Positions 4,003-39,422 of a stretch of 64,000 nucleotides of DNA are shown piece by piece. The position numbers were made by a program, and so were the translations under genes. Source of the stretch: Pseudomonas sp. MTM4 (GTDB taxonomy: Bacteria > Pseudomonadota > Gammaproteobacteria > Pseudomonadales > Pseudomonadaceae); assembly GCF_019355055.1 (NCBI RefSeq), contig NZ_CP048411.1:3685501-3749500 (forward strand), written 5' to 3'. Position 1 is the first letter of the stretch. Each line of letters opens with the position of its first letter. The notes beneath the pieces are model-generated. The model was not told the origin of the DNA and did not search any database. It saw only the letters and a list, made by a program, of their open reading frames with translations.

Positions 4003-4030
4003 TGAAAACGAGCGAGCACAGTGGTTTTCA
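4003..4030. repeat. Short inverted repeat TGAAAAC/GTTTTCA
   Basis: TGAAAAC (4003-4009) and GTTTTCA (4024-4030) flank a GAGCGAGCA-containing centre. The arm plus the AGCGAGC segment recall the ends of the longer palindromic elements at 12549-12696 and 29717-29842, so it may be an internally deleted derivative. It lies upstream of the DUF2788 gene and downstream of the Lrp regulator gene (both minus strand). Confidence 0.3.
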
Positions 4031-4182
4031 CATGGCCTGAGTCGATACAGCTATGACAGCCGGCGAACATTTATCGACGAGCGAGACGCTATTTCTATAA
4101 GTGGTGCGCGCCGGGGCATAGCAAGGCGGCGGCGATTATACGCCAAGTCCGGCAGCGTCGATTCCCGGCGCGGCAATGGGTC

Positions 4183-12460: not shown

Positions 12461-12548
12461 CGCGGTCGGAACCGTCTCGGAAAAACAGGCGCGCACTTTA
12501 GCCCAAGAAATCGGGCAGCGACATGCGCGATATTGCCGTCCAAGCAGG

Positions 12549-12696
12549 CTGTGTGAAAACTGCTGCGCTCGGTTATGCGGCGTTAAAAGCAGGCTCGGAT
12601 GCGAGCCCAGTCCGCTTCCTCGCCTGTTTTTGTGGGGACGCCTAGTTCTTGCCTGGGCGGCCCCGCCTAACCTTCGCTCGCTACGTTTTCGCACAG
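12549..12696. repeat. Palindromic MITE-like element, copy 2
   Basis: The element is about 148 bp, with terminal inverted repeats CTGTGTGAAAAC (12549-12560) and GTTTTCGCACAG (12685-12696), 11 of 12 matching. Just inside the ends are TGCTGCGCTCGGTTATGCGG and CCTTCGCTCGCTACG. These match the ends of the element in the FMN riboswitch (29717-29842) in inverted orientation: AACGCMGCATRACC, then GAGCGCAG at one end, and GTAGCGAGCG at the other. It encodes nothing and lies between the divergent yciC-like and NYN genes. Confidence 0.7.
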
Positions 12697-12735
12697 TCTG
12701 CATACTGGCCCGCCTTTCTCGATTCGGGTTGCCGC

Positions 12736-29660: not shown

Positions 29661-29930
29661 CGTTCTCAGGGCGGGGTGAGATTCCCCACCGGCGGTAATG
29701 GCGCAGCTATAAAAACATTGAAAGCGTAGCGAGCGCAGGGCAGGCAAGGCGTGATTCGACGAGAAAGCGGAATTTACTGCGGTGAATGAGCATTTCGAGG
29801 AGGATTACAACGCAGCATGACCTGAGCGCAGTAGCTTTCAATTCGTGCCTAGCCCGCGAGCGCTTGTCTTAGACAAGGTCAGCAGACCCGGTGTGATTCC
29901 GGGGCCGACGGTATAGTCCGGATGAGAGAG
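29661..29930 (+). promoter_or_regulatory. FMN riboswitch (RFN element) with large insert
   Basis: FMN-sensing leader controlling ribE and the genes after it. Conserved blocks: TTCTCAGGGCGGGGTGAGAT (29663-29682), CCCCACCGGCGGT, AGCCCGCGAGCG (29851-29862), GGTCAGCAGACCCGGTG and GGGGCCGACGGTATAGTCC, followed by GGATGAGAGAG. P1 pairs TTCTCA (29663-29668) with TGAGAG (29923-29928). The variable P3 arm normally takes only a short hairpin. Here GGCGC (29700-29704) pairs with GTGCC (29845-29849) around a 126-bp palindromic insert. All core residues recognised look intact. Confidence 0.95.
29717..29842. repeat. Palindromic MITE-like element inside the riboswitch P3 arm
   Basis: Terminal inverted repeats ATTGAAAGC (29717-29725) and GCTTTCAAT (29834-29842). 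Subterminal GTAGCGAGCGCAGGGCAGG and AACGCAGCATGACCTGAGCG complete the ends. The same end sequences occur inverted in the element at 12549-12696. It has no coding capacity. Because the whole insert is self-complementary at its ends, it extends the P3 stem and may leave aptamer folding intact. Confidence 0.8.
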
Positions 29931-29991
29931 AGCGGGATGCCTCGACGGGCGCCGTTCGTGCGCGCGTCTACTCCCTATCGATCTGCAGCGC

Positions 29992-30011
29992 CCTGTTTTA
30001 TCCAAAACAGG
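29992..30011 (+). promoter_or_regulatory. Leader hairpin, candidate ribE expression platform
   Basis: CCTGTTTT (29992-29999) pairs with AAAACAGG (30004-30011). The right arm takes in part of AGGAG (30009-30013), a good Shine-Dalgarno for the ATG at 30022. The first two bases could alternatively pair as GGGCGC (29947-29952) with GCGCCC (29988-29993), so two exclusive structures are possible. No T-run follows, which favours translational rather than transcriptional control. Confidence 0.45.
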
Positions 30012-30021
30012 AGTTGGTCAT

Positions 30022-30072
30022 ATGCATCGTTTCAACAGCCTTCCACGGGAGGCCGTATGTTCACAGGAATAA
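30022..30072 (+). CDS. Possible 16-codon leader peptide overlapping ribE
   Basis: MHRFNSLPREAVCSQE, with AGGAG 8 nt before the ATG. It ends 16 bases inside ribE in another frame, and the ribE ribosome-binding site (GGGAGG, about 30047-30052) lies within it. It could couple or limit translation of ribE, or be chance. There is no homology evidence. Confidence 0.3.
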   Translation: MHRFNSLPREAVCSQE

Positions 30073-30725
30073 TCGAGTCCATCGGGACCATTCGTGCGAT
30101 GACGCCCAAGGGCGGCGACGTCCGTGTGCTGGTCGAGACCGGCAAGCTGGACCTGTCAGACGTCAAACTTGGCGACAGCATCGCGGTCAACGGCGTCTGC
30201 CTGACTGCCGTGGAGTTGCCGGGCAGTGGCTTCTGGGCTGACGTGAGCCGCGAAACCCTGGCCCGTACTGCCTTCGTCGACCTCAAGGCCGGCAGCCGGG
30301 TGAATCTCGAGAAGGCCCTGACGCCGTCGAGTCGTCTCGGCGGGCATCTGGTCAGTGGTCACGTCGATGGCGTGGGTGAGGTGGTGGCGCGCGAGGAAAA
30401 CGCCCGCGCCGTGCAGTTCCGCATCCGCGCGCCGCGCGAGCTTGCCAAGTACATCGCGCTCAAGGGCTCGATCACGGTCGATGGCACCAGCCTGACGGTA
30501 AATACCGTGAACGGCGCGGAGTTCGAGCTCACCATCGTCCCGCACACCTTGGCCGAAACCATCATGGTCGACTACCGCCCCGGGCGGCAGGTGAATCTGG
30601 AAGTGGATCTGTTAGCGCGTTATTTAGAGCGCCTGCTGATGGGTGACAAGGCAGCCGAGCCGAATGCCTCGGGCCTGACAGAAAGCTTTCTGGCCGAAAA
30701 CGGCTACCTGAACCGCGCTCGTTAA
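30057..30725 (+). CDS. ribE: Riboflavin synthase, alpha subunit
   Basis: 222-residue enzyme that dismutates two molecules of 6,7-dimethyl-8-ribityllumazine into riboflavin and the pyrimidine precursor (also named RibC). Two lumazine-binding repeats are visible: MFTGIIESIGTIR and VNGVCLTAVELPGSGFWADV in the first; LGGHLVSGHVDGVGEVV and TVDGTSLTVNTVNG in the second. The start at ATG 30057 has GGGAGG just upstream. First gene of the FMN-riboswitch operon; ribBA follows after 19 bp. Confidence 0.96.
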   Translation: MFTGIIESIGTIRAMTPKGGDVRVLVETGKLDLSDVKLGDSIAVNGVCLTAVELPGSGFWADVSRETLARTAFVDLKAGSRVNLEKALTPSSRLGGHLVSGHVDGVGEVVAREENARAVQFRIRAPRELAKYIALKGSITVDGTSLTVNTVNGAEFELTIVPHTLAETIMVDYRPGRQVNLEVDLLARYLERLLMGDKAAEPNASGLTESFLAENGYLNRAR

Positions 30726-39020: not shown

Positions 39021-39225
39021 GCAACACCAGTCGAATCCGTCAGGCCGGTCTCCGGGCTTTCGACACGCACCACGCTCGCCTTCCCATGCTGAGCACAGTG
39101 GCGGTTGAGCGGGCGGCGATCCTCATGGATCGCGGTCGATTACCGTTGCGGGGGCAGCGCCGGCCTTGCTCAACGAGCGCACCGGCTTCCCGTTTAATGC
39201 GGACCTTGCGGTCGTGCACACCTGG
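39021..39225 (-). promoter_or_regulatory. Cobalamin (AdoCbl) riboswitch
   Basis: Read on the minus strand the aptamer blocks appear in order: GGGAAGCCGGTG, GCTGCCCCCGCAACGGTAA, GCCACTG, GGGAAGGCGAGCG and the B12 box AAGCCCGGAGACCGGCCTGA. The aptamer lies between about 39225 and 39030 and precedes btuB by about 100 bp. Expected to lower btuB translation when cobalamin is bound. The remaining DNA to 39422 shows nothing recognisable. Confidence 0.94.
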
Positions 39226-39422
39226 GCGGATTGGAAATCGCGGGAACCTTAAGGGCTGCTCAGAAGAAATACAAGCAATGTGCTGGCAACGGGAGGAGCC
39301 TTGGCCGCGAGAGCGGATGTGGCGGGCTTGTGGCGGCTCGAACATGCACCATCGACCCCCGGACATGGTGTCGAAAGGGCGTGACTCAGCGCGGCGTGGG
39401 CCGCGCATCTTGCGTCGATGGT

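Follow-up and report, generated by a model that had tools for sequence, protein, structure and literature searches.

The window analysed here, a stretch of 64,000 nucleotides from Pseudomonas sp. MTM4 (NZ_CP048411.1, positions 3,685,501 to 3,749,500, forward strand), contains a flavin mononucleotide (FMN) riboswitch (RFN element, RF00050; 29661-29937, plus strand) upstream of a gene that we take to be ribE (riboflavin synthase), given the protein it encodes and the genes around it. The P3 arm of this riboswitch holds a palindromic element of 126 bp (29717-29842, plus strand) which, to judge from its sequence, is a decayed copy of a family of miniature inverted-repeat transposable elements (MITEs). 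Members of this family share their ends with an insertion sequence (IS) of the IS1182 family, and about half of the copies in our first sample are in hairpin loops, often those of transcription terminators, far above chance. The P3 arm looks like one more hairpin target of the same family.

The explanation that we consider probable is that IS1182-family elements and their non-autonomous MITEs duplicate 4 bp of the target on insertion and prefer loops in DNA that can form hairpins. Within Stutzerimonas, a MITE of this kind would have landed in the P3 hairpin loop of an ancestor, and, target and element both being hairpins, the two would have fused into a single longer P3 arm in the RNA. The nucleotides of L3 docking onto L5 would sit below the insertion point, so that the aptamer would still fold and its regulation by FMN would probably be retained, and the long arm may have been tolerated as a mostly neutral addition. 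Afterwards the outer ends of the element would have decayed, many lineages would have lost it, and homologous recombination through the flanking invariant blocks may have swapped it from strain to strain.

The riboswitch and its P3 arm

At the gathering score Rfam does not report the riboswitch at 29661-29937. A relaxed search finds RF00050 over 29786-29937 (E 9.9e-13) with 58.2 bits, below the gathering score of 66.2, and the score is low because the insert, within which the alignment begins, interrupts it. Our genus sample consisted of 56 Stutzerimonas genomes, 54 of which have the riboswitch, the other two being only 71-73% complete; those under the Rfam cut-off are exactly the 24 in which P3 is occupied by the element, while the other 30 pass. 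Riboswitches that bear the insert may therefore stay unannotated. A preliminary description of the locus had held the aptamer core to be otherwise intact, and this is borne out by seven core blocks with 0.08 mismatches per genome in the 24 occupied genomes and 1.5 in the other 30, a comparison biased in that the blocks were picked from the same sequences as were scored and the 30 include more distant lineages. The window riboswitch thus has the core blocks, the six-helix plan and the ribE context of RF00050 and differs from its typical members in a P3 that is longer by roughly 140 letters of apparently mobile origin.

Folded without constraints, 29661-29937 gives P1, P2, P3, P3b, P4 and P5 together with a shifted P6 (-102.3 kcal/mol), that is, a six-helix junction. 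In this predicted structure the element hairpin continues P3b, in agreement with the earlier suggestion that its complementary ends lengthen the helix instead of breaking the fold. The element by itself (29717-29843) reaches -46.1 kcal/mol (z -4.5), and none of 200 shuffles was as good.

The conserved P3 stem is formed by GCGG (29692-29695) and CCGC (29854-29857), and its four pairs are invariant in the 24 occupied arms. GGCGC (29700-29704) and GTGCC (29845-29849) had been taken for the original base of P3; they do flank the element, but they form the variable outer helix P3b, in which one of the five pairs is changed on both sides in two of 23 distinct rows. The adenine at 29697, which by our own count along GGUAA would be the counterpart of A38, does not vary in the 24 occupied arms and lies three letters ahead of the variable part. 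In structure 3f2q, as far as an excerpt of PMC3764141 goes, A38 belongs to L3 and is intercalated in L5.

The element was found as described, with inverted ends ATTGAAAGC (29717-29725) and GCTTTCAAT (29834-29842), and is bounded by the conserved blocks CACCGGCGGTAAT and AGCCCGCGAGC. The palindrome is there, but the original element was longer than these 126 bp, since complete relatives, typically of 140 bp (CAGGC...GCCTG), extend beyond it at both ends. In the riboswitch copy the outer ends have decayed and only the inner part of the terminal inverted repeats is kept. A stretch beginning with CAG at 29704-29716, overlapping P3b by one letter, is probably the decayed outer left end, as suggested by a weak by-eye alignment to the CAGGCYGTG of complete copies.

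The MITE family and its parent element

A genome-wide search with the element, as proposed earlier, found three further diverged copies in its own genome (68-74% identity; four matches in total) and at least one match in 51 of the 56 genus genomes, the own genome and the riboswitch copies being counted. The element is short and non-coding and is present in several copies per genome and genus, as MITEs are. Complete copies have the ends CAGGCYGTGTGAAAAC...GTTTTCACACRGCCTG, and variants of 43-80 bp and 155-200 bp accompany the typical length.

Target duplications were sought in two samples. In the first, 80 loci were scanned, giving 51 two-ended copies and, after removal of similar flanks, 32, including two poor matches that were retained (L065 and L082). 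An exact direct repeat of 4 bp flanks nine of the 32 copies, whereas 0.29 are expected from exchanged partners; exact repeats of two, three and five letters occur once each (2.7, 0.6 and 0.03 expected). At least three of the four duplicated letters agree in 19 of the 32, as against 6% in the control. The second sample was drawn from other genomes by means of the end sequence, with IS and MITEs pooled; its 120 stretches yielded 52 copies, 43 after de-duplication, and 24 of these have the exact 4-bp repeat (1.9 expected). A repeat of the REP/BIME type (repetitive extragenic palindromes and bacterial interspersed mosaic elements) was set aside given the IS-like ends and the 4-bp duplications. Origin from a plasmid or phage was likewise rejected, a distant search having returned one plasmid record (Halomonas, 74.8% identity) and no phage.

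The family shares its terminal inverted repeats with autonomous elements. At three Pseudomonas loci (L184, L190 and L232) the exact 16-bp ends of the MITE stand 1.7-2.1 kb apart, and L232 encodes between them an intact transposase of 482 amino acids belonging to the IS1182 family (NF033551, 468.2 bits, cut-off 270). In L190 the reading frame is broken and its longer piece scores 264.9 bits, slightly under the cut-off of 270. Among 30 DDE_Tnp_1_6 loci examined within the genus, L161 and L164 alone have both ends within one letter of those of the MITE; these two elements, of about 1.6 kb, lie inside terminator stems between the direct repeats GGTAA and TTTG. Several other loci of the genus have more distant ends (CAGAGTGTGTAAAAAC). 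The shared ends are the basis for our suggestion that a transposase of the IS1182 family moves the MITE.

By eye, many copies of the IS1182 type lie in a recurrent palindrome, GTCCGCTTTTGGCC/GGCCAAAAGCGGAC, between direct repeats resembling GGCC or GACC (L153, L157, L158, L211, L232, L242 and L284). The window itself has a second two-ended copy of the MITE family at 12545-12700, a copy with similar flanks being found in genome G040, and a lone end-like match at 4024-4039.

Hairpins as targets

The preference of the family for hairpins goes beyond what the preliminary description contained. In the 32 copies the left and right flanks pair with a mean duplex energy of -15.6 as against -10.5 when permuted (standard deviation 0.57), and none of 200 permutations was as low; 15 of the copies exceed the 5% point of the control. 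The signal is weaker in the second sample (mean -12.2 against -9.4, standard deviation 0.49), where none of 300 permutations was as low. At least 12 copies sit, as judged by eye and without a control, at the apex of an intrinsic terminator (L066, L067, L070, L071, L073, L075, L077, L081, L097, L099, L116 and L120). The site of L071, in genome G025, has a match in 55 of the 56 genus genomes. In 29 other genomes this site shows an uninterrupted terminator-like hairpin after the gene in 23 cases and none recognised by our rule in six; short MITE motifs occur within 350 letters of it in one of the 29 (L313), where the hairpin is uninterrupted.

Several observations weigh against the explanation given above. 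No target duplication can be recognised at the riboswitch copy, whose outer ends have decayed, and for these reasons its own point of insertion can only be inferred. None of the 30 DDE_Tnp_1_6 loci of the genus has the exact ends of the MITE. When P1 is left out (29669-29924), the lowest-energy structure of the aptamer is non-native, with other pairs. Among the matches listed for the Cobalamin riboswitches of the genus, none has an insert of similar size. Furthermore, 17 of the 32 copies in the first sample are not beyond the 5% control level for a hairpin target, and only five of the 43 in the second sample are, and, as loops tolerate inserts, survivorship may contribute to the hairpin bias.

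The 17 copies of 32, and 38 of 43, with no hairpin target beyond the 5% level would suit a MITE that has no targeting at all, inserts anywhere and survives only where it does no harm, as in the loops of terminators and the arms of riboswitches. However, in L071, L077 and L164 both flanks pair and the duplicated letters are the loop, which requires the element to have landed only a few letters from the apex, and positions so near an apex account for little of the intergenic DNA that is harmless to hit. The portion of PMC4923244 consulted moreover describes IS1272, another element of this family, as hairpin-targeting. Insertion without targeting is in our view unlikely, if deserving of some weight, and hairpins are probably chosen by the element instead of just being tolerated.

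A scan of 40 loci (L065-L104) with Rfam for structured RNAs picked up a tRNA and a group II intron, both neighbouring the copies, and otherwise weak matches. At L103 a group II intron domain adjoins the MITE copy; some group II introns also favour terminators.

P3 occupancy in Stutzerimonas

The P3 arm was read in all 54 riboswitch genomes and measured block to block. It is full in 24 (172-192 letters) and short in 29 (40-61 letters), so that the comparison of ribE leaders recommended in the preliminary description did find empty arms. The remaining genome, G012, has an arm of 94 letters which is probably a remnant; its locus, L026, is convincing as such, with none and one of 300 shuffles scoring as high against two references. 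The corresponding numbers for shorter arms are 1 and 9 of 300 (L027) and 3 and 19 of 300 (L034), and L024 and L031 gave no remnant signal in the shuffle test. Extra stretches in the P6 loop of the FMN riboswitch, seemingly unrelated to the MITE, were seen at L030, L032, L033, L317 and L319.

An ancestral expansion of the riboswitch had been named beforehand as the alternative to insertion. In such a case P3 would always have been long and its palindrome would be due to chance, and P3 length does vary in the genus even where the element is absent. Against it, copies elsewhere carry the same ends as an IS, and P3 is short in all 11 early-branching rows of a midpoint-rooted tree of ribE and part of ribBA as well as in 22 genomes of other genera. 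In view of the copies elsewhere and the many empty arms we reject this possibility as extremely improbable.

The phylogeny rests on two gene trees, and occupancy is scattered on both. On the ribE/ribBA tree it needs at least 15 changes, eight of them forced by well-supported branches; on the second gene tree, for the 29 riboswitch genomes among 30 loci and with G012 scored as short, it needs eight changes, of which six are forced. The arm can differ where the displayed flanks, 32 letters upstream and 50 downstream, are identical: G028 and G004 have GGCCACGGCC, whereas G054, G005 and G020 have the element. Such scatter might also arise if P3 had been invaded several times independently and not once, long ago, with later losses and swaps. 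We regard this as quite improbable, as the orientation of the element and, give or take single letters, both of its junctions are shared by all 24 occupied arms, and the distance between elements tracks that between hosts (Spearman 0.73, 276 pairs). From the sequences compared we infer one old P3 insertion, followed by loss and by the swapping of arms through recombination in the invariant blocks.

Passenger or working domain

The preliminary description left the choice between exaptation and a neutral landing site. Under exaptation the element would now be a working part of the riboswitch, affecting how fast the RNA folds or decays or how tightly it binds FMN, and would be kept by selection. 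In the 23 distinct rows of occupied arms 97.6% of pair cells are standard and ten are changed on both sides, as against a shuffled mean of 2.3, a statistic that includes the four invariant P3 pairs and in which related rows can beat such shuffles without structure. Also, the mean element distance is smaller than the mean distance at ribE third positions in five of six distance bands (for example 4.5% against 14.9%, and 16.8% against 33.0%), but the order is reversed in the closest band of five pairs (4.7% against 2.9%).

Copies at other sites provide the comparison that tells most against such a role. They are 0 to 9.7% apart in 22 pairs whose hosts differ by 22-36% at ribE third positions, whereas riboswitch copies average 13-17%; the groups of other-site copies were assembled by hand from copies found with the window element. 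The other-site copies being better conserved on average, nothing points to special selection on the riboswitch copy, which lacks the conservation beyond other repeat copies expected of an exapted domain. The state of the arm, too, differs between strains with identical displayed flanks and changes repeatedly on both trees. We consequently think exaptation unlikely and favour a tolerated passenger, because closely related strains differ in the arm and the copy in the riboswitch is no better conserved than those at other sites. The neutral landing site thus fits better of the two.

Two groups of MITE copies directly upstream of genes are close to one another in spite of this 22-36% divergence of their hosts: L088, L096, L100, L101 and L102 are 1.6-3.2% apart, and L060, L061 and L078 are 0-9.7% apart. 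From their first codons we assume the genes downstream to be ubiX and hyi, respectively. These gene-upstream copies may be better candidates for exaptation than the copy in the riboswitch.

A second arm in another genus

Of 198 genomes surveyed across the family, 169 gave an FMN riboswitch match, 154 of them over the cut-off. Three that scored low belong to another genus, g12; their P3 is short, and the same MITE family is present in P4, a second arm that the preliminary description did not foresee. The P4 inserts of g12 align to the family consensus with scores of 100-120, where the shuffled control reaches at most 30. Among the 18 g12 genomes the P4 insert is full in three (G134, G147 and G172), shortened in two (G082 and G159) and absent in 13. 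When each insert was tested against its own shuffles with the family consensus, none of 300 was as high for the three full ones, and two and one of 300 for the shortened ones. The full P4 inserts match the MITE consensus better than they match the P3 copies, the consensus being also somewhat longer. On the ribE tree the five occupied genomes are scattered (five changes, two forced). All 22 genomes read from other genera, 18 of g12 and four others, have a short P3. We read the P4 inserts, on these alignments, as an apparently independent colonisation of the same riboswitch.

At the level of the order, an FMN riboswitch match was obtained in 24 of 115 genomes, and the window genome alone was below the cut-off; weak split hits may be lost in this survey.

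Comparison with known systems

IS1272 and TnSha1, of the IS1182 family, target DNA secondary structures in staphylococci, several of which are confirmed transcription terminators, according to the portion of PMC4923244 consulted. The elements described here resemble them in family and in their secondary-structure targets, terminators included. They differ from IS1272, which is there said to insert without target duplication, in making 4-bp duplications and sitting at the apex, and, as far as that portion goes, from both in having two riboswitch arms among their sites. With bacterial MITEs in general (PMC10969869, in excerpt) the element shares its short length, lack of coding capacity, inverted ends and stable RNA hairpins. 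The same source considers it conceivable that MITEs act as riboswitches and mentions potential T-box motifs in pneumococcal BOX repeats. There a riboswitch-like motif lies in a repeat; here, in reverse, a repeat lies inside the aptamer of a known riboswitch. Among the open-licence papers listed on riboswitches, MITEs and hairpin or terminator targets of insertion sequences, no title or abstract opening describes a mobile element inside a riboswitch arm.

Palindromic repeats that enter structured RNA genes and lengthen a helix are also exemplified by the Rickettsia palindromic elements. These are a family unrelated to the MITE studied here, and we know of no hairpin-targeting transposase for them.

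As a tentative generalisation, which we think possible rather than likely, hairpin-seeking elements of the IS1182 type might dock in structured-RNA genes more widely, and riboswitch arms might grow and shrink by MITE capture, internal deletion and recombination. The FMN riboswitch would then have been entered at least twice, in P3 and in P4, and the process could be a general source of arm length. Hairpin-targeting transposition is in this way suggested as a route by which RNA families gain peripheral domains. Among relatives the same riboswitch occurs with its arm empty, full or shortened, and this for two different arms, a natural series that makes the tolerance of the aptamer for foreign structure directly testable.

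Expression platform and neighbouring features

Downstream of the aptamer the hairpin CCCTGTTTT...AAAACAGGAG (29991-30013, plus strand) is able to mask a ribosome-binding site and is the putative expression platform; it is kept in all 24 occupied genomes and in all 30 others. The ribE reading frame lies at 30057-30725 on the plus strand. An upstream open reading frame (ORF) of 16 codons (MHRFNSLPREAVCSQE, 30022-30072) starts eight letters past the hidden ribosome site and overlaps the start of ribE in another frame. An ORF of 15-16 codons is present at this place in 52 of the 54 genomes, the own genome included, with 35 letters to ribE (32 in G052), its conservation being partly forced by the overlap with ribE. 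G013 and G037 are without it, and there the ribosome site stands six letters before ribE. The riboswitch may act by translational coupling via this upstream ORF. Elsewhere in the window there is an intact Cobalamin riboswitch at 39026-39241 on the minus strand, with a score of 93 bits.
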